A stretch of DNA of 58,039 bases from Candidatus Kuenenia stuttgartensis (lineage in GTDB: Bacteria > Planctomycetota > JAKEIC01 > DYIT01): NCBI GenBank assembly GCA_020723505.1, contig DYIT01000014.1:1-58039 (forward strand). Reading direction: 5' to 3'. Positions 29,505-43,072 of this stretch are shown piece by piece. A program made the translations under genes and the position numbers. The number at the start of each line of letters is the position of its first letter. Position 1 is the first letter of the stretch. The notes beneath the pieces are model-generated. The model was given only the letters and a program-made list of their open reading frames with translations, was not told where the DNA came from and searched no databases.

Positions 29505-30773
29505 TCACTTCGCGGGACGCAGCGAGCTCAGGCTTTCCTGGACCTCGGCCATGCTCCGGAACCTGTTCGAAGGGTCGCGGGACATCATCTTCCCGACCGC
29601 TTCCGACAACCCCTGCGGCAGGGCCGGGTTCACCACGTTCAGCGGCGCGAGATCCACGTGCACCTGGGCCTTGAGTTTCAACGTAACCTTCCCCACTTCG
29701 TCATAGGGCTGCCTTCCCGCGCCGGCGAAATACAGAGTCGCTCCCAGCGAATAGATATCCCCGGAAAAGCTCGGAGCCTGGTACTGCGCAATGCTCTCGG
29801 GAGGCACGAACCCCGGCGTGCCCATGAACGTCCCCTCCTTCGTCAGCCGCTCATCGTCGATGGAGCATGCAAGCCCGAAGTCCACCAGCTTGTATTCCCC
29901 GGGGCCGCAGACGATTATGTTCCCGGGTTTCACGTCCCTGTGCATGAACCCCCGCCGGTGCATGTAGGCCAGACCCGACGAAATCTGCAGGCCCAGTTCG
30001 GCCAGTTCCTCTCCCGCCACCGCCCCATTCGCGCTTATCTCCTCCTCGAGGGTCCGCCTGGGGAGGCGTTCCATCGCGTAATAGTACACGTCTCCCGACG
30101 TCCCGACGTCGAAGACCTTGACGATGGACGGGTGCTCCATCTGCACCGCAATCCTCATCTCGCGGAGAAACCTGAGGACGTATTCCCTGTTCCCGGCCAT
30201 CACGGGATTCAGGACTTTCAAAGCCACCTCGGACCCGTATCCCAGATGCTGGGCAAGGTACACCGTCCCCATTCCGCCCGAGGCGATTTCACCGATGATT
30301 CCATACTTGCCGTTGTCTATCACCGCCCCGGGACCGATGTCCTCGATGCGCACCGCCCCCGACCTGCGTTCGGAATACCTGATGTTGTCCGGGCTTATCC
30401 TCTTGCCGAGCGCGACCTGGATTCTCTGCAAAAGGTCCGTGAAGTCGAACGGCTTGACTATGTAGTCTGTCGCCCCGGCCTTGAACGCCGAGGCTACGTC
30501 CGCCTCCTGCCCGAATCCGGACACGACTATCACCGGCAGCGTGGACGACGGGATTTGAGCCCTTATCCTTTTTATATACGCCATGCCGTCCATCACGGGC
30601 ATCCTCATGTCCGTCAGCACGACGTCCGGGACTTCGGAAAAGGTCTTCTGTATCCCCTCCATCGCGTTCGAAGCCGTAACGACCTCGTAGCCCTCCATCT
30701 CGAGGACCGACGTGATGAACACCCGTATGCTCTCCTCGTCGTCTATGGCGAGGACTTTGAGGGCCTTTTTCAT
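29505..30773 (-). CDS. Response-regulator receiver domain fused to Hanks-type Ser/Thr kinase
   Basis: REC: KVLAIDDEESIRVFI...DVVLTDMRMPVMDG...PVIVVSGFG...YIVKPFDF; kinase: GEIASGGMGTVYLAQ, VALKVL, HRDVKPGNI, LVDFGLA, GTPGFVPPE. Confidence 0.93.
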   Translation of the reverse strand: MKKALKVLAIDDEESIRVFITSVLEMEGYEVVTASNAMEGIQKTFSEVPDVVLTDMRMPVMDGMAYIKRIRAQIPSSTLPVIVVSGFGQEADVASAFKAGATDYIVKPFDFTDLLQRIQVALGKRISPDNIRYSERRSGAVRIEDIGPGAVIDNGKYGIIGEIASGGMGTVYLAQHLGYGSEVALKVLNPVMAGNREYVLRFLREMRIAVQMEHPSIVKVFDVGTSGDVYYYAMERLPRRTLEEEISANGAVAGEELAELGLQISSGLAYMHRRGFMHRDVKPGNIIVCGPGEYKLVDFGLACSIDDERLTKEGTFMGTPGFVPPESIAQYQAPSFSGDIYSLGATLYFAGAGRQPYDEVGKVTLKLKAQVHVDLAPLNVVNPALPQGLSEAVGKMMSRDPSNRFRSMAEVQESLSSLRPAK

Positions 30774-31597
30774 ATGCACAGCTCAATCCCCACCGGGCAA
30801 TGGTCCGATCCGAGGACCTTGTCCAGGATGAAAGCCGACTTCACTTTGCCCGCGATTTCGCCGGATGCGAAGAAATAGTCGAGACGCCAGCCCACGTTCC
30901 TCGGCCTCGCGCGGGTCCTTTGGTCCCACCAGGTGTACGCGCCTTCAGTACCGGGATGAAAGACCCTGAACGTGTCCGCGTAGCCGCTCGCCGTGAACTT
31001 GTCCAGCCAGGCCCGCTCCTCGGGGAGGAAACCGGTGGAACCCCGGTTCTCCGCAGGCCTCGCAAGATCAATTTCCCTGTGGGCGGTGTTGAAGTCGCCG
31101 CAGACGATCACGCCCTCCCCGCGGCGCCGCCTGCGCTCGCATGCGTCGAGGAGGGCGTCCGAAAAATCCAGCTTGAAAGGCACCCTGCTCAGGTCGGACC
31201 GGCCGTTGGGAACGTACACGTTCACGAGCGTGAAACCGGGGTATCTGAGGAACATGGCGCGGCCTTCAACGTCGAACCTCGCGTCGCCGAGCCCCATCCA
31301 AGCCTCGACCGGCTCGATTTTCGAGAAGACCGCCGTGCCGCTGTAGCCCTTGCGCTCCGCGGAATGGAAATACGACCGGTAGCCATCAGACGATGCAAGG
31401 CCGGGAGGGAACTGCTCCGGAGAAGCCTTGGTCTCCTGGAGGCATGCCACGTCGGGCGATGTCCCTGAAAGGAATCCGGCCAATCCCTTGCCGGCAGCCG
31501 CCCTGATCCCGTTCACGTTCCAGGAAACCAGCGTCAGCCGGCCCGGGATCGGAGACTTCAGATCGGCTTTCTTCAAGTTCCCCCGCCTCCTTTCCAA
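30770..31597 (-). CDS. xthA: Exodeoxyribonuclease III (AP endonuclease)
   Basis: LVSWNVNGIRAAAGKGL, CLQETKA, GYSGTAVFSK, VNVYVPNG, VCGDFNTAHREIDLARP, GWRLDYFF, LGSDHCPVGIEL. Confidence 0.95.
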   Translation of the reverse strand: MERRRGNLKKADLKSPIPGRLTLVSWNVNGIRAAAGKGLAGFLSGTSPDVACLQETKASPEQFPPGLASSDGYRSYFHSAERKGYSGTAVFSKIEPVEAWMGLGDARFDVEGRAMFLRYPGFTLVNVYVPNGRSDLSRVPFKLDFSDALLDACERRRRRGEGVIVCGDFNTAHREIDLARPAENRGSTGFLPEERAWLDKFTASGYADTFRVFHPGTEGAYTWWDQRTRARPRNVGWRLDYFFASGEIAGKVKSAFILDKVLGSDHCPVGIELCI

Positions 31598-32473: not shown

Positions 32474-33637
32474 TTGTTCAGGATTCTAATCTGCAAAGAC
32501 TGCGGCGAACGCTACGACGCTTCAGGCCTATCCAGCGGCGGAAGTTTCAAATGCGCGGGTTGCGGAAGGACGATTTCGCCCGAAATCCGAGTGCTCAAGC
32601 ACCTGTTCGGTCCTGATGAGGAGAATGCCGAATCCGGGGAGTCGCCCGCTTCCGGTACATGCTCCTCTGCATGGCAGGAGAAGCTCATCGGGCCGTACAG
32701 GGTTCTTTCCGAAGTCGCAAGAGGCGGAATGGGCGTCGTCTACCGCTGCAAGCATGTCGAAGACGGTGAAACCGTGGCATTGAAGGTCCTGCAGTCGCCC
32801 AGGCGGTCCGGCAGGAACATGGTCCAGCGGTTCCGGCACGAAGCGCGCCTCACCGCGGGCCTCAGCCATCCCAACATCATACCCATATATGACATAGGGC
32901 ACGACGGGCCCCTTCATTATTTCTCCATGAAATACGTCGAGGGAACCACGCTGGACTGCCGCATGAGCGAGGCGGGCTTCAGCATTATGGACGGGATAGC
33001 ATGGCTCGCCAAGACCGCACGGGCCATGGACTACATGCACCAGAAGGGGGTGGTCCACAGGGACGTGAAACCGGGCAACATAATCCTGGACCGCGACGGA
33101 GAGCCGTACTTAATCGATTTCGGCCTCGCCAAGAGCATCGAGTCGCCCCTGCACATGACGAAACCGGGCATTGCCATGGGGACACCAGCCTACATGTCGC
33201 CCGAGCAGGCCGAGGGCGACAGGAAAATAGACGGCAGGGCCGACGTATATTCGCTCGGAGCCGTTCTGTTCGAGATGATAACCGGCGAACCGCCCTTCAA
33301 GGGCGAGAGCCTTATGGAAACGATGCTGATGGTCGTGTCGGACATGGCGCCGTGCCTCAGGAAGTACAAGCCGGACGTGAATCCGCGGCTCGAGGCCGTC
33401 TGCCTCAAGGCCCTCCAGAAGAACCGGGACAGGCGGTACCAGACGGCAAGCGCATTCGCCGAAGACCTCGAAAGAATCGTCGAGGGCAAGCCGGTCGCGG
33501 CCAGGCCGCAGACGCTCAGGGACAAGGTCCGCGAGAACATCAGGCGCTACAAATATCCCGGGCTGCTCTTCATGGCTTCGATGGCCGGCGGCTTCGCCGC
33601 GCTCGCCTCCGTGATGGCCATTGCGGGAAGGCTTTAG
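32474..33637 (+). CDS. Zinc-ribbon Hanks-type Ser/Thr kinase with C-terminal TM segment
   Basis: N-term CKDCGERYDASGLSSGGSFKCAGCGR; GGMGVVYRCKH, VALKVL, HRDVKPGNIIL, LIDFGLAK, GTPAYMSPEQ; C-terminal TM. Confidence 0.93.
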   Translation: MFRILICKDCGERYDASGLSSGGSFKCAGCGRTISPEIRVLKHLFGPDEENAESGESPASGTCSSAWQEKLIGPYRVLSEVARGGMGVVYRCKHVEDGETVALKVLQSPRRSGRNMVQRFRHEARLTAGLSHPNIIPIYDIGHDGPLHYFSMKYVEGTTLDCRMSEAGFSIMDGIAWLAKTARAMDYMHQKGVVHRDVKPGNIILDRDGEPYLIDFGLAKSIESPLHMTKPGIAMGTPAYMSPEQAEGDRKIDGRADVYSLGAVLFEMITGEPPFKGESLMETMLMVVSDMAPCLRKYKPDVNPRLEAVCLKALQKNRDRRYQTASAFAEDLERIVEGKPVAARPQTLRDKVRENIRRYKYPGLLFMASMAGGFAALASVMAIAGRL

Positions 33638-34790: not shown

Positions 34791-37061
34791 ATGGACGGAG
34801 GAAAATCCGGGATCCTCTCTGTTATTCTCCTCGTCGGCATCCTCGTTATCTCCCTGTTCGCCGTGGCGCAGAAGAACAGGACCGAGGACAGGCTAAAGAA
34901 GATAAACGAATCCCTGACGTCGATGGAGGACGAGCTCAAGAAGAACATCAGGGACGTATCGCAGATGAAGGGCGATTTCGGCTCAATCACCGACAATTTC
35001 CGGGAATCCAAGCTCAATCTCAAGGATCTCGAGACCGAGAGCAAGGTGCTCGGAACCCGTTTCGAGTCGGTGACCGGCAGCATGGAGAAGCTCGCCGCGG
35101 AAATCAGGGAACTCGCGAAGGAAGTCAACTCAATCGAAATCCGCGCAGCGAGAGCCGAGGAAACCGCCGGGAAATCCTCGAAGAACGGAGACGAGGCCGG
35201 CGAGAGGAAAGGGACGGATTCGTCCGGCAAGCCCGGCGACGGCGTGAGCGCGGGCTCCGACGGCACGGGCGGACGAGCCGGAAGCCGTCCGAAATCGCCG
35301 TGGGGGCCGCAGGGGCCCACGAGGGACGAGGCGGACAGGCTCTGGGAACCGGACGCGAACGGTATTGTGCGCCCGGTCATCGACGACTACACCGCCGGGG
35401 AATACAACCCTGCCCTCAACGGCGGCACTCTCATGGCCATGCTCGGCACGGATCCCAAGGGATTCAACCCGCTCACCGAGAACAGCGACGACGTCTCCTA
35501 CCTCCAGAGCTACTGCTGGCCCAGCCTCTGCGGGCGGCTCCGGTTGAGGCCGGAGATATGGGTCTACGACCTTGCCGAATCCTGCGAGATTTCCGACGAC
35601 TTCAAGGTCTATACCTTCCGCGTAAGGAAGGGAGTCAAGTGGCAGAAGCCCATCGCCAATTATGCGGACCAGAAGTACGCATGGCTCAGGGACGCGGACC
35701 GGGAGGTCACGGCACGTGACTTCCAGTTCTTCTTCGAGATGATGATGAACCAGCAGGTCCAGTGCACGCACGCGAGGAACTACTACCAGGACATAGAGAA
35801 AGTCGAGGTCCTCGACCGCTACAGCCTCCGGATTACGTGGAAGCGCAAGGTCTACCAGTCCATCACCGTAAGCCTCGGGTTCCAGCCCCTTGCCGAGTTC
35901 CTCTACGCATACGACGAGAACGGGAACAGGTTCCCGGACGAGTCAATCGGCCTCGATTTCAATACCCACTGGTACAACAACAAAATCATCAGCTGCGGGC
36001 AGTTCCTGTTCCATGAATGGAACCACGGGGTGTCCGTCACGCTCGTCAAGAATCCCGATTACTACGGAAGGCCGGCCAATATAGAGAAGATTGTATACAT
36101 GATTATCCGCGAGGATGACCAGGCGCTGCTCAATATAAAGAACCACGAGGTCCAGATAAGCGGCATCCGGATGGCCCAGTACAAGCAGGAGGTCATCGAG
36201 AAGGGCGACAAGAGCATGTTCTTCAAGCGCGGCGAAGAGCCGGTGGGAAACCAGAAAATCATGTACGACTTCTACGACAGGTTCGGCTACTACTACTTCG
36301 GCTGGAACCTGGAGAACCCCAAGTTCAAGGACAAGAGGGTCCGGAATGCGCTGACCTACGCCTGTCCGAGGAGGAAGATACTCCAGGAAATCTGGGTGGG
36401 GCTCGGCGAAGTCGTCACGGGCGAGGCCTATTACAGGCATCCGTACTACAACCCCAACATCAAGGAGCACCCCTACGACCTCGAGAAGGCCAAGCAGCTC
36501 CTCTCCGAGGCCGGATGGTTCGACACGGACGGCAACGGGATACTCGACAAGATTATCGAGGACAAGAAGGTCGAGTTCGAATTCAAGCTCCTCCTGTACG
36601 GCAACTCCAAGGAATGGCAGTCCACTGCCGACGCCTACAAGGAAAGCCTGAGAAAGATTGGAATCACCCTGAACGTCGAGGTGCTTGACTGGGCGCTCAT
36701 GCAGGAGAAGATGGAAGCGAGAGAATTCGAAGCCTATTCCGGCGGTTGGGCTCTGGCCTGGGAAGTGGACCCGTACCAGATTTGGCATTCATCCCAGGCG
36801 AACGAGCCCAAGTCCTCCAACATGGTCAGCTTCAGGAACGCAGAGGCCGACAAAATCATCGAGGAGGGGAGGGTGACCTTCAGCGAGGCCAGGCGGCGCG
36901 AGATTTTCTGGCGCTTCCACGAAATCGTACATGATGAGCAGCCGTACACGTTCCTCTTCTGCCTGAAAGCCATACCGGTCTGGTGGCAGGAGGTGAAGGG
37001 CGTGCAGTTCTCGCTCATACGGCCCCAGAGTTTCAAGGGCAACTGGTACCTGAACAGGTAG
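34791..37061 (+). CDS. ABC oligopeptide transporter substrate-binding protein (SBP_bac_5) with N-terminal TM anchor and coiled coil
   Basis: TM + heptad-like N-term (MDGGKSGILSVILLVGILVISLFAVAQKNRTEDRLKKINESL...) then SBP family-5 body (GGTLMAMLGTDPKGFNPLTENS...FKVYTFRVRKGVKW...); GTGGAGG SD. Confidence 0.85.
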   Translation: MDGGKSGILSVILLVGILVISLFAVAQKNRTEDRLKKINESLTSMEDELKKNIRDVSQMKGDFGSITDNFRESKLNLKDLETESKVLGTRFESVTGSMEKLAAEIRELAKEVNSIEIRAARAEETAGKSSKNGDEAGERKGTDSSGKPGDGVSAGSDGTGGRAGSRPKSPWGPQGPTRDEADRLWEPDANGIVRPVIDDYTAGEYNPALNGGTLMAMLGTDPKGFNPLTENSDDVSYLQSYCWPSLCGRLRLRPEIWVYDLAESCEISDDFKVYTFRVRKGVKWQKPIANYADQKYAWLRDADREVTARDFQFFFEMMMNQQVQCTHARNYYQDIEKVEVLDRYSLRITWKRKVYQSITVSLGFQPLAEFLYAYDENGNRFPDESIGLDFNTHWYNNKIISCGQFLFHEWNHGVSVTLVKNPDYYGRPANIEKIVYMIIREDDQALLNIKNHEVQISGIRMAQYKQEVIEKGDKSMFFKRGEEPVGNQKIMYDFYDRFGYYYFGWNLENPKFKDKRVRNALTYACPRRKILQEIWVGLGEVVTGEAYYRHPYYNPNIKEHPYDLEKAKQLLSEAGWFDTDGNGILDKIIEDKKVEFEFKLLLYGNSKEWQSTADAYKESLRKIGITLNVEVLDWALMQEKMEAREFEAYSGGWALAWEVDPYQIWHSSQANEPKSSNMVSFRNAEADKIIEEGRVTFSEARRREIFWRFHEIVHDEQPYTFLFCLKAIPVWWQEVKGVQFSLIRPQSFKGNWYLNR

Positions 37062-37085: not shown

Positions 37086-38987
37086 ATGAGATCCTATTTC
37101 ATAAAGAGGCTTCTCCTGATGATCCCGACCCTCTTCGGGATTTCAATCGTCGTCTTCGTCGTCATCAACCTCGCCCCGGGATCCCCGGCCATGCTAATCA
37201 CCGGGTCCCAGGGCGGCCAGGTGGACCCCGGGACCGTGGGCTCCAAGGAGAACGTCCTCATCTTCAAGCGCCAGTGGAACCTCGACAAGCCCGCCATCAT
37301 CAACACTAGGGGCTACTTGCTCGACGAGGAGGACGTTTCGAAGCACGTCGACGCAATGATCTGGGGCAGCGCCAAGGAGAGGATGAAATCCAACGAGGAA
37401 CTGGAAAACCTCTGGCTCGACGCGGTCCCGCACCTAGTCTCCCTGCTCGAGAAGGAGCGCGAAGCCGAAAAGAACGCGGCAACCGGACCCGAACGGGAAA
37501 GAAACACCAAGAAGAGGCTGTACCTCATCAACCTTCTCGTGCAGAACGCGAAGCGCAAGATAGAGAAGGTAAGGAAAGACGAGGACGCCGAGGACTACAC
37601 CGACTCGCAGAAGCGGACCCTCGCGCTCAACGAGGAAATCGGCAAGGACAAGGCCAGGTTCGACGCGTGGAAATACCTCCTCCTCAAGCTCTCGGACCTG
37701 AAGCCGGAAGTGAGGGACAGGCTCGAACGGAACTGGATTAACTGGTTCCGCGGGAGCAGAGGGCTGTACCCGGCCGCGGCGGACGCCGGCGCCGTCCTCG
37801 CGGAAATGAGGAAGCACAAGCCTGCTCCCGACGCGGGCCAGGCCGGAAAGACGAAGGCCGTGAAAGAGGCCGCCTCCGCCCTTTCGGGACGATTCGGCAG
37901 GGCAGCGCTCCCGGCGCTGGTGGAAACGCTCCTCGGGAACGGGAAGGATGACGCGCTCTGGATTGAGCTCACCCCGGTGGCGGTGGAGCTCGTGCGCATT
38001 CTCGACCCCGTGCCTTCGAGCGCCTCGCCGGAGGAGCTCAAGGCCTATTACTCCTGGTGGCGCGAAAACATCTTCTCTGCCGGATTCAGCGATCTCGAGA
38101 AGGAATACCGCAGAATACGCTGGCGTGAATGGTGGGAGGGGACCCGCAGCCGCTTCGAAAAGACCGCTCTCGGCAATTTACGCGACCTGTTCCTCGAGAC
38201 GAGGTTCGCCAACTACATATCGAAGGTCATATTCCTGGATTTCGGCGAATCCATCCAGTACAAGGGCGAGCGCGTGCTCGACATCATCTCCGAAAGGCTC
38301 GAGGTCTCAATGACCTTCGCCATATCGGGATTCATCATCGCGTACATATTCTCCATCCCGATAGGCATCTACTCCGCGGTGTTCAAGGACTCCATTCCGG
38401 ACAGGATTTCGACGGTTGTCCTGTTCATGCTCTATGCGCTTCCGAGCTTCTACGTGGGCACAATACTCCTGACCTATCTCACGACCGAGGAATACCTGGC
38501 GATTTTCCCCACGGGAAGATTCAAGAGCCCGGGGTCGGAAAACATGACCACAATCGAATTCGTGCTCGATGTGGCATATCACATGGTCCTGCCGATTATC
38601 TGCTACGAATATGCGAGCCTCGCCACGCTCTCCCGCTACGCGCGCGCCGGGCTCCTCGAGGTGATAAGAGCGGACTACATCCGGACGGCGAGGGCAAAGG
38701 GGCTTTCGGAACCCGTTGTAATCCTCAAGCATGCGCTCAGGAACGGCGTCATTCCCCTGCTGACGATGATCGGCGGCATATTGCCTGCGCTTATCGGCGG
38801 ATCAGTCATTATCGAGACGATTTTCAACATCGACGGCATGGGAAAGCTGATGTTCGATTCCATAATGGGAAGGGACTACACGGTCGTGATGGCGGACGCG
38901 CTAATAGCCGCGTTCCTCGTCCTTTGCGGGATACTCCTGTCCGACCTCACCTACGTGCTGGTGGACCCGAGAATCTCGTTTGATTGA
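37086..38987 (+). CDS. ABC peptide transporter permease, DppB/OppB-like, with ~300-aa extracytoplasmic insertion
   Basis: N-term MRSYFIKRLLLMIPTLFGISIVVFVVINLAPGSP; C-term SRYARAGLLEVIRADYIRTARAKGLSEPVVILKHALRNGVIPLLT; insertion about 37296-38200. Confidence 0.9.
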   Translation: MRSYFIKRLLLMIPTLFGISIVVFVVINLAPGSPAMLITGSQGGQVDPGTVGSKENVLIFKRQWNLDKPAIINTRGYLLDEEDVSKHVDAMIWGSAKERMKSNEELENLWLDAVPHLVSLLEKEREAEKNAATGPERERNTKKRLYLINLLVQNAKRKIEKVRKDEDAEDYTDSQKRTLALNEEIGKDKARFDAWKYLLLKLSDLKPEVRDRLERNWINWFRGSRGLYPAAADAGAVLAEMRKHKPAPDAGQAGKTKAVKEAASALSGRFGRAALPALVETLLGNGKDDALWIELTPVAVELVRILDPVPSSASPEELKAYYSWWRENIFSAGFSDLEKEYRRIRWREWWEGTRSRFEKTALGNLRDLFLETRFANYISKVIFLDFGESIQYKGERVLDIISERLEVSMTFAISGFIIAYIFSIPIGIYSAVFKDSIPDRISTVVLFMLYALPSFYVGTILLTYLTTEEYLAIFPTGRFKSPGSENMTTIEFVLDVAYHMVLPIICYEYASLATLSRYARAGLLEVIRADYIRTARAKGLSEPVVILKHALRNGVIPLLTMIGGILPALIGGSVIIETIFNIDGMGKLMFDSIMGRDYTVVMADALIAAFLVLCGILLSDLTYVLVDPRISFD

Positions 38988-38995
38988 AGCTGAGA

Positions 38996-41023
38996 ATGGA
39001 CGACGAAAAAAACATGGCTGGAAACATGCCGGACCCGCCGGCTCCCGAAGGCGGACCCGGCCTTCAGTCCGGCGCTCCCGCGGGGCCGGACGCCGAATCC
39101 GCCCCCCCCGCCGGCGCGGACGGACTCCGCTTCGCGCAGGAGGAAGCCGACAGGCCCGGGAAATCCTACTGGCAGATAGTGGCAAGCCAGTTCAGGAAGA
39201 ACAGGCTCGCGGTCTGGTCCATGAGGGTGCTCATCCTGCTGTTCCTGCTGGCGATTTACGCGCCGGTCATTTCCCACAACGTGCCCTTCCATTTCAAGGA
39301 CAACCTCAGAAGCCGTATCGGGGACGGTGACGTCGTGACCGTGGGCAGGCATTCGTTCAAGGTCGTGAAGTCCGAGGAAGCCGCCCCGGCGGCCTCGCAG
39401 GAAGGCGAAGCCGGCGAAGGGCCCAGATCCAGGTTCAACATCGTGGACGAAACGGGCGCCAGGTTCCCCATCCTCGGGGAAGTCACCGCCGGCAGCCGCG
39501 AGACCTGCGCAATCCGGAGGCCTGATCTCCCGGCAATTCATGCCCGGTTCGGCCTTTTCAGGGACAGCGTCTACGTCGAGGACGTGTCCGGTGGCCGGTC
39601 GGTCCAGGTCAACGGCCTTCCCGTGGGCAGCGTCGAATGGCCGTGGTTCGCCTCCCTGTTCGACCGCAACGAGTTCGAGACCGACATCGACATCGTTTTC
39701 AACCTGCTGGTCTTCTACCTTCCCCCGGCCCTGGCGGCGTTCCTGGCGGCGCGCTTCTTCATGAAGGGCAGGCCCCGCGCCTGGAAGGCCGGACGCGTCG
39801 TCTGCGCGGTCATTCTCGCATGCGGCCTCGGCGGGGCGTTTGCGCTTACCAAGCTCTATGAGACCAAGATTCCGTTCCGGGATTTCAAGGCCGAAATTGA
39901 GGCTTCCGGGGGCGAGAAATCCGGCGTATTCCCGCTGATTCCCCATTCCTACAGGCAGCAGTTCCTGGCAATCAACCAGAAGCCGCCGTGGAGAACGGCC
40001 TACTTCGGGAAGACCGGCGATTCCTACAGGGCCGAATTCGGGAAGAACGACGAGATCCGGGTCTGCGGAAACGCGTTCAAGGTCGTGTACAAGTCGGTGG
40101 AACTGCCTGGAGGAGGCGTGGGCAAGGCAAGGCACTTCCTGAAGGACTCCGCAGGCCGGGAGTACGTCATCGACGGCAGGATCACGATTGGAAGCGGTCC
40201 GGGCTGCCAGGTCGGAATCCAGGGCCCGGGAATCGCCGAGGCGCATGCCACGGTCGAAACGGAAGACGGGAAGTTCTGGGTCGAGGACCTCACGAGGACG
40301 GGCACCGTCACTGCCGGAGGGATTCCGGCGAACGGGGTGCAAGAAACCCTGTTCTCCAGGAAGTACGTGTTCGGCGCGGACCAGCTCGGCCGGAGCGTCT
40401 TCTCGAGGCTGCTGTACGGAACCAGGATTTCCCTGACAATCGGGATAATCGCCGTCTCGATTTACGTCACCATCGGCATCTTCATCGGAGGCATCGCCGG
40501 GTACTTCGGCGGGATAGTGGACATTCTCGTCTCGAGGGTCATCGAGATCATGATTTGCTTCCCGACGTTCTTCCTGATTCTCTCCCTGGTCGCTGTGCTC
40601 GGGAAGAGCATCTTCATGGTCATGCTCATCATAGGCGTGACGAACTGGACGGGGGTCGCAAGGCTTATTCGTGGTGAATTCCTCAAGCAGAAGCAGATAG
40701 ACTACGTCACGGCGGCGAGGGCGCTGGGGGTATCGAGGTTCCGGATAATGTTCAAGCACATTCTCCCGAACGCCATATCGCCCGTGCTGGTTTCGGCCAG
40801 CTTCGGCGTGGCGGGGGCCATACTGGTGGAGACTGGGCTGAGCTTCCTCGGGCTCGGGGACGCGAGGACGCCGAGCTGGGGCCAGATTCTCGACGCAGGC
40901 AGGGCTTCCAAGGAGGCGCATCTGATACATCTGCCCGGCCTCGCGATTTTCATGACCGTTGCGATTATGAACCTCATGGGCGAGGGTTTGAGGGACGCGC
41001 TTGATCCAAAACTCAGAAAATGA
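38996..41023 (+). CDS. ABC peptide transporter permease, DppC/OppC-like, with ~350-aa insertion containing two FHA-like domains and two extra TM helices
   Basis: Core [26 protein letters not shown]...[45 protein letters not shown]...[13 protein letters not shown]; insert described in findings. Confidence 0.88.
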
Positions 41024-42038
41024 CGGCGTGAATCCGGTTTCCACGGCCGATGCCCCGGCGGGATCGGTGCCTCCGGCGGACGTCCTGGTCTCGGTGAGGG
41101 ACCTGAGGACCTACTTCTTCACCGACGAAGGCGTTTTGACTGCCGTGGACGGCGTCTCCTTCGACATTCCGAAGGGAAGGACGCTCTGCATAGTCGGGGA
41201 ATCCGGGTGCGGCAAGAGCGTCACCGCGTTCTCAATCATGCGGCTCATTCCCGAGCCGCCGGGACAGATTGTGTCCGGCGAAATCGTTTTCGAAGGCAGG
41301 GACCTCACGAAGATATCCGAAAGGGAAATGCGGAGGATCAGGGGAAACAAGATATCCATGATATTCCAGGAGCCCATGACCTCCCTGAACCCCGTCTACA
41401 CGGTCGGGAACCAGATTATGGAGGCCGTGACGCTCCACCAGGGGAAGAGGTCCTATGAGGCGAGGCAGATCGCGGTCGAGTTCCTGCGCAAGGTCGGCAT
41501 CCCCTCTCCCGAGCATAGAATCGACGAATACCCCCACCAGATGTCCGGAGGCATGAAGCAGAGGGTCATGATTGCCATGGCCCTGTCGTGCTATCCCTCC
41601 CTGCTCATCGCGGACGAGCCGACCACCGCGCTCGACGTGACAATCCAGGCGCAGATACTCGACCTCATGAACAAGCTCAAGGCCGAATTCGGCATGTCGA
41701 TTATGCTCATCACGCACAACCTGGGCGTCGTGGCCGAGATGGCCGACGAGGTGGTGGTCATGTACGCGAGCAAAATCGCCGAGAAGGGGTCGGCGGTCCA
41801 GGTGTTCAAGAATCCCCTGCACCCGTATACGCACGGGCTGTTCAACTCCATACCGGTGCTCGGAATGAAGAAGGACAAGCTCGAAGTAATCCCCGGGGTC
41901 GTCCCCAACCCGCTCGATTTCCCGTCGGGCTGCAAGTTCCGCACACGCTGCAAGCGCGCGCACAACCGCTGCCTCGACGAACCCGAGCTGAAGGAAGCAG
42001 AACCCGGCCACCACGTGGCCTGCTGGTTCGCCGCATGA
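41001..42038 (+). CDS. ABC peptide transporter ATP-binding protein, DppD/OppD-like
   Basis: [53 protein letters not shown]-terminal oligopeptide domain [14 protein letters not shown]. Confidence 0.95.
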
Positions 42039-43072
42039 CGGCCATGGACGCAAACGGCATGGAAGGAAAGAGGATGCTGATTCAGGTCGCGGACCTCGTG
42101 AAGCACTTCCCCATCAGGAAAGGGGTCTTCTCGAAGGTAACCGGCCAAGTCAGGGCAGTTGACGGCGTCTCCTTCCATCTCTTCGAGGGCGAGACGCTCG
42201 GGCTCGTGGGCGAGTCGGGATGCGGGAAGACCACCGTGGGAAGGGCCATTCTCCGCCTCATCGAACCCACCTCCGGGAGCGTGAAGTTCAGAGGCCAGGA
42301 CCTTCTCGCCATGGGCAGGCGCATGATGAAGAGGATGCGCAAGGAGATGCAGATTATATTCCAGGACCCCTTCTCCTCGCTCAATCCCAGGATGACGGTC
42401 GAGGGAATCGTCGGCGAAGGCCTCGCCGTGCACGGCATGGCCCGCGGGGAGGAGCGCCGCAGGATGGTGCGCGACATACTCGAGAAAGTCGGCCTGTCGA
42501 AGAACCACATAACCCGCTATCCCCACGAGTTCTCGGGAGGCCAGCGGCAGAGAATCGGCATCGCAAGGGCCGTGGTGCTGAATCCGGGCTTCATTGTGTG
42601 CGACGAGGCCGTGTCGGCGCTCGACGTCTCCATCCAGGCGCAGATAATCAACCTGCTTCAGCAGCTCAAGAGCGAATTCCGGCTCTCGTACCTGTTCATA
42701 GCGCATGACCTGTCCGTTGTGGTCCACATCTCCGACAGGATCGCGGTCATGTACCTCGGGGAAATCGTCGAGACCGCCCCTTCAATGGAGATTTGGCAGA
42801 AACCGCTGCATCCATACACGCAGGCGCTCATATCGGCGGTGCCCGTGCCGGATCCGACCCGAAGGAAGGACAGGATTCTGCTCAAGGGCGACGTCCCCAC
42901 GCCGATAAATCCGCCTTCTGGCTGCAGGTTCCATACGCGGTGCAGCCACGCCATGCCGATATGCTCGAGGGAGAAGCCGCCGACCGTCTCGGCCGGAGAG
43001 GGACACACGGTCGCCTGCTTCCTGGTCAGCGGCGCCGGCGGGACCCAGTCGGCCCCTCCCCCCGCGATTTAG
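42035..43072 (+). CDS. ABC peptide transporter ATP-binding protein, DppF/OppF-like
   Basis: [70 protein letters not shown] overlap with DppD gene. Confidence 0.95.

Follow-up and report, generated by a model that had tools for sequence, protein, structure and literature searches.

An expanded DppC-type permease with two FHA-like modules in apparently permuted order

Results

A DppC-Type Permease Contains Two FHA-Like Modules and an Added Helix Pair.

In a 58,039-nucleotide stretch of DNA from Candidatus Kuenenia stuttgartensis (hereafter, the window), the product of the gene at 38996-41023 is a genuine DppC-type permease and an expanded member of that family, in which TM1 is followed by an FHA-like module, a pair of TM helices flanking a positive loop, a second FHA-like module and then the DppC core (Table 1). 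This domain architecture is real and unusual; the transporter itself is of a known type. Both modules look, from profile scores and alignments, like circularly permuted FHA domains, and this probable permutation is the most surprising part of the architecture. Pfam and the homology between the modules, together with AlphaFold for the helices, bear out a permease of ~675 aa with two FHA-like domains and two extra TM helices after TM1, as the earlier note had described it.

The ORF runs uninterrupted for 675 aa and thus departs from a typical DppC, which has six TM helices only and ~300 aa. It matches OppC_N at residues 57-95 (41.1 bits, Pfam cut-off 23.9) and BPD_transp_1 at residues 494-675 (110.1 bits, above cut-off), and a structure search aligned its permease core with E. 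coli DppC (8z1w_B; 43% identity over ~220 columns, 1.8 Å, E 1e-13). The importer genes are ordered A-B-C-D-F. The order of the operon, the combination of OppC_N with BPD_transp_1 and the fold of the core are those of E. coli DppBCDF (PDB 8z1w), whereas solved DppC/OppC structures lack the two added TM helices and the two FHA-like modules. Third-position G+C is fairly even across dppC (0.77-0.90), and the two FHA modules are separated by a motif conserved in the subfamily, which makes an assembly chimera unlikely. The DppB insert (window 37263-38186) has no Pfam family above cut-off over its ~300 aa; it is mostly helical, with parts that resemble HEAT repeats by eye. The SBP N terminus (window 34791-35186) consists of a TM segment and then a coiled-coil-like stretch; in related SBPs only a short linker occupies that place. 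Two genes near the operon (window 29505-30779 and 32474-33637) are kinase-like.

Table 1. Features of the importer operon and of its DppC-type permease (window coordinates; residues are those of DppC unless stated)
Feature	Coordinates	Strand	Basis
SBP (SBP_bac_5) with N-terminal TM segment and predicted coiled-coil-like tether, SBP residues ~28-132	34791..37061	+	
DppB with ~300-aa insert between TM1 and core, DppB residues ~60-367	37086..38987	+	
DppC-type permease, 675 aa, with two FHA-like modules and added TM pair inserted	38996..41023	+	Pfam, AlphaFold, structure search
TM1, residues 70-92, inside OppC_N	39203..39271	+	Pfam, AlphaFold
Module 1 hairpin, residues 102-127, C-terminal FHA hairpin ahead of its own core	39299..39376	+	Profile scores
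Module 1 FHA core, residues 145-212; GS, PAIH and VNG replace GR, SxxH and NG	39428..39631	+	
Conserved subfamily lead-in, residues 215-236	39638..39703	+	Alignment of relatives
Added TM helix 2', residues 230-255	39683..39760	+	AlphaFold
Positive loop, residues 256-267, predicted cytosolic	39761..39796	+	Net +5 in the 15 residues after TM2'
Added TM helix 3', residues ~268-287 (helix 260-287 in the model)	39797..39856	+	AlphaFold
Module 2 hairpin, residues 344-369, ahead of its own core	40025..40102	+	Profile, alignment
Module 2 FHA core, residues 377-447; GS, AEAH, AGG	40124..40336	+	Pfam FHA match at 396-438
Permease core, residues 454-675	40355..41020	+	Pfam, structure match to 8z1w_B
DppD-type ATPase (ABC_tran, oligo_HPY)	41001..42038	+	Pfam
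ORF with DppF-type ATPase; true start internal, beyond the dppD end	41588..43072	+	Sequence reading

The Permease Belongs to an Expanded DppC Subfamily.

A search for DppC homologues with inserts found the added TM pair, with varied loop fillings, in at least 78 of 101 distinct close relatives (as judged by hydropathy), probably from Planctomycetota, Myxococcota, Sumerlaeota and other groups. Many of these relatives have in common TM1, a lead-in that follows the pattern (F/W)PWFxxLFDRxxFExxVDIFFN, the helix pair and, ahead of the core, a segment rich in proline, and the window DppC likewise has the TM pair with the conserved lead-in after TM1. The extra helices are therefore present as previously noted, but they are conserved across the subfamily and not peculiar to this gene. 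In family f25 of the window's phylum, the DppCs closely resemble those of the Schlesneria loci L015-L020, which points to Planctomycetota as that phylum.

What differs among the relatives is the content of the loops on either side of the TM pair, which range from 27 to 348 aa ahead of it and from 4 to 245 aa behind it in the 101-member set, and whose fillings are helical, weakly EF-hand-like or OB-like by eye. In L058, the DppC of genome G013, an EF-hand-like stretch, DGNGDGSVSKSE, below cut-off, fills the loop after TM1, the site of FHA module 1, and in L154 and L198 beta fillings that look OB-like by eye occupy the pre-core loop, the site of module 2. Judged from these comparisons, the loops flanking the TM pair are an insertion hot-spot, and the FHA modules are the filling of the window gene. 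The partners of DppC are enlarged as well: with phylogeny ignored, the distance from TM1 to the core of DppB has a median of 195 aa where DppC has the extra helices and of 43 aa where it lacks them (p = 0.001), and the SBP tether measures 98 versus 3 aa (p = 0.03). The window importer thus resembles its expanded relatives in its TM pair with a WPWFxxLFDR-type lead-in, its large DppB insert and its tethered SBP, but differs from them in that their loops are filled otherwise, with no FHA above threshold.

Both Modules Are FHA-Like and Appear Circularly Permuted.

The FHA fold, an eleven-strand beta sandwich, is known above all for reading phosphothreonine in the cytosol. Module 2 matches it over residues 396-438 with 33.3 bits (Pfam PF00498, cut-off 20.7), while the core of module 1 alone scores 13.3 bits, below that cut-off. 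The two modules, ~29-30% identical, align end to end, hairpin included, with a score of 92 (2000 shuffles: mean 28 ± 5, maximum 54), and module 1 is accepted as FHA-like because of this homology. On the strength of that alignment, one module is a duplicate of the other, in permuted order. A profile built from both modules matched FHAs of the same genome in hhalign with E ~1e-11 in native order (59 columns, score 58) and ~1e-14 in restored order (79 columns, score 74). When searched by sequence against PDB chains, core 2 weakly matched the Mycobacterium TB39.8 FHA (E 0.21) and core 1 gave no match.

FHAs encoded by the same genome close with a hairpin that follows the pattern L..GDxIxIG...FxF. 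In the window DppC, such a hairpin instead precedes each FHA core, in departure from the canonical strand order, and no hairpin-like stretch follows either core. Placing core 1 ahead of its own hairpin raised the Pfam score from 13.3 to 20.3 bits (cut-off 20.7), with the match covering positions 15-67 of the 67 in the profile. Using an HMM built on 28 of the genome's own FHAs, core 1 alone scored 19.7 bits and core 1 with its hairpin 30.3 bits, a value that neither the 599 other windows of the protein nor 2000 shuffled hairpins attained. With core 2 there was no gain from the hairpin (39.3 bits either way, with 22 of 2000 shuffles reaching the same score), perhaps owing to extra residues that trail the core. 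When every position of the protein was scored with a hairpin profile, residue 105 came first (19.7) and residue 345 second (11.9), the third-best position scoring -3.9 (mean -25.9, SD 8.4). These scorings (Pfam, HMM and hairpin profile) also rule out “VGRHSF” as the FHA G-R motif of module 1, a reading made in the earlier note: that stretch belongs to the transposed C-terminal hairpin, and the core at ~145-212 has “TAGS,” “PAIH” and “VNG” in the corresponding places. Moreover, both modules can be aligned over their whole length with the hairpin of one FHA and the core of the next in tandem FHA proteins, suggesting an origin for the permuted unit. Both modules therefore look, by these scores, like circularly permuted FHAs with the order C-terminal hairpin, linker, core. 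The note's view that both domains derive from FHA stands, given the Pfam match and the mutual homology; the apparent permutation had escaped it. Two FHA proteins, L085 and L095, were considered as further permuted cases since their profile match stops short of the hairpin, but a hairpin-like stretch follows the core in each, and both are canonical.

In a full-chain AlphaFold model, computed with 23 aligned sequences, the core and the helices at 70-92, 230-255 and 260-287 are confident (pLDDT ~85-93 for the two added helices). The FHA modules have low pLDDT in this model, because none of the aligned relatives carries them; tandem FHA rows were left out of the whole-protein alignment, where MAFFT had set them on the permease core. 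Modeled separately with five aligned rows in all, module 2 is all-beta, hairpin included (pLDDT 71, pTM 0.65). Since the input rows were already in permuted register, this model is no proof of the permutation by itself. Foldseek found no significant match to it in the PDB, the best FHA being OdhI (E 0.45, TM-score 0.26).

Two other accounts of these modules have to be weighed here. That module 1 and the hairpins resemble FHA by coincidence, the inserts being some other small beta domain, would fit the score of module 1 alone, which is under the Pfam cut-off, and the weak Foldseek match of the module 2 model; given that module 2 exceeds the FHA cut-off by itself, that the two modules are clearly homologous and that both orders match same-genome FHAs in hhalign, we consider it very improbable. 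A cross-paired arrangement, in which hairpin 2 completes core 1 (in canonical order, across the intervening TM pair) and hairpin 1 completes core 2 to give an interlocked pair, is improbable as well. Pairing cannot be read from sequence alone, and with the 28-FHA HMM the crossed combinations score 25.9 bits (core 1 with hairpin 2) and 42.6 bits (core 2 with hairpin 1). However, core 1 scores higher with its own hairpin, each hairpin lies only ~10-20 residues from its own core, and at least one permuted pairing is needed in either case.

The Modules Have Lost the Reading Residues and Probably Lie Outside the Membrane.

The R and S that read phosphothreonine are absent from both modules, and the N is also absent from module 2; by contrast, all five reading residues are kept in 17 of the 28 FHAs of the same genome. 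The alignment thus bears out the earlier remark that the canonical residues are altered (GS, AEAH), G-R and S-x-x-H being lost in both modules. Elsewhere in the genome, some FHAs have GS/AxxH sites like those of module 2, for example one fused to a histidine-kinase-like protein on contig C156.

In E. coli DppC the TM1-TM2 region is periplasmic, and a scoop motif that follows TM1 of DppB grips the SBP (PMC12136057). This topology, together with a count of three helices ahead of the core and the +5 loop within the added pair, would place both modules outside the membrane. The extracytoplasmic position proposed in the earlier note is thus supported by the known topology of DppC and by the added helix pair with its positive loop.

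FHA-Derived Pieces in Other Permeases and in the Same Genome.

None of the other DppCs in the 101-member set scored as FHA (next best, 4.2 bits), nor did any in a second set of 36, most of them from the phylum of L010, on the Myxococcota side; these sets overlap slightly and comprise ~137 DppCs together. An apparently longer match in G654 proved on examination to contain no FHA. Four DppCs (L059, L190, L135 and L206) of the planctomycete family f19, a different family in the phylum of the window, resemble the window DppC in that an FHA-like C-terminal half (hhalign E 2e-6) with a GD-x-I/L-x-V-G hairpin lies in the pre-core loop, but there the order is canonical, as opposed to the permuted order of the window DppC. 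This segment has no reading residues and no Pfam FHA call, and the TM pair was not detected in these four DppCs by hydropathy. In L059 and L190, and more weakly in L206, the hairpin-type segments stand immediately before the core in degenerate, canonical-order form, so that FHA-derived pieces may, on this sequence comparison, have entered the pre-core loop more than once.

The permuted form was seen in the window genome only, and the sole other genome of the same order has no match to the insert. The window genome, of 4.9 Mb, has ~60 FHA matches, some in tandem arrays, with six in one ORF on contig C74. In three Myxococcota-side genomes (L010, L012 and L014), dppC has FHA-CpaF-like and tandem-FHA genes at a distance of a few kb, in a conserved neighborhood; these genes are read as belonging to another system.

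Discussion

From these results, the importer is one of an expanded subfamily whose DppC carries an added TM pair after TM1, whose DppB has a large loop at the corresponding place and whose SBP is held on a long tether; the loops on either side of the added pair accept foreign domains. The simplest route to a permuted module would be the excision of one period from a tandem FHA array, and the permuted module would then have been duplicated into the second loop. Each module would close on itself as an FHA sandwich outside the membrane and would most likely serve in protein-protein contacts, as a phosphorylation-independent docking or scaffold piece on the outward side of a tall importer, holding the tethered SBP or the DppB insert in register over the pore. 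The subfamily, the FHA homology, the transposed order, the duplication, the lost reading residues and the joint expansion of the parts are backed by sequence statistics; the extracytoplasmic site, the closed FHA fold and the docking role are what we infer from them. Docking of the binding protein or cargo, the role put forward in the earlier note, would draw indirect support from the larger DppB loop and the longer SBP tether that accompany an expanded DppC, a comparison made with phylogeny ignored. Taken as a whole, this explanation (an expanded-subfamily DppC with permuted, duplicated, extracytoplasmic FHA modules for docking or scaffolding) seems to us evenly balanced between right and wrong.

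The main rival is that the loops are merely permissive, and that folded but functionless FHA modules persist there after a recent insertion and duplication. The same loops in relatives hold unrelated fillings of very different length, and the permuted form is confined to one genome, with no insert match in the only other genome of the order. Against such neutral accretion, the parts of the transporter expand together across the relatives, and the two copies, although diverged to ~29-30% identity, both retain the pattern of hairpin and core, which suggests constraint on the fold; we hold this rival to be unlikely. The modules might instead be working phospho-dependent readers, either cytosolic or reading phosphorylated outer proteins, through which Ser/Thr kinases gate the importer. 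The wealth of FHA matches in the genome would be in keeping with this, as would the kinase genes near the operon, the abundance of Ser/Thr kinases in the genome and the ABC transporter Rv1747 of Mycobacterium tuberculosis, which has a pair of FHA domains and reads phosphothreonine through the intact first one (PMC5549992). Yet R and S are gone from both modules and N from module 2, helix count and loop charge place the modules outside, and the periplasm is without ATP (PMC11032199), all of which makes phospho-dependent reading extremely improbable.

As an ABC transporter with two FHA domains, Rv1747 is the nearest functional parallel to the window DppC. It differs in being a putative exporter and in that its first FHA reads phosphothreonine, whereas the window DppC has lost the reading residues. 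A structural FHA-like domain within a membrane complex is also found in inner-membrane proteins of the YscD/PrgH type, where it is cytoplasmic. The window DppC matches PF16697 (Yop-YscD_cpl) weakly (17.9-19.3 bits, below the Pfam cut-off of 33.2); the host proteins of the YscD/PrgH type are unrelated to DppC, and their FHA-like domain lies on the cytoplasmic side. In the open-access literature we found no circularly permuted FHA, no extracytoplasmic FHA and none in the outer part of an ABC importer, nor anything relevant on FHA together with ABC permeases or the periplasm.

On balance, we lean slightly toward these modules being natural circularly permuted FHAs that act outside the cytoplasm as phosphorylation-independent structural parts and stem from one period of a tandem array duplicated into two loops. 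If so, a fold would have been re-ordered and relocated outside the membrane in the service of a transporter; within the open-access literature, this would be the first described circularly permuted FHA, and the tandem FHA arrays present in the same genome make visible a route by which it could have arisen. Beyond this gene, the relatives look like an apparently undescribed class of expanded peptide importers in which DppB, DppC and the SBP tether grew together, and which would offer a testable system for the evolution of the outer parts of importers.
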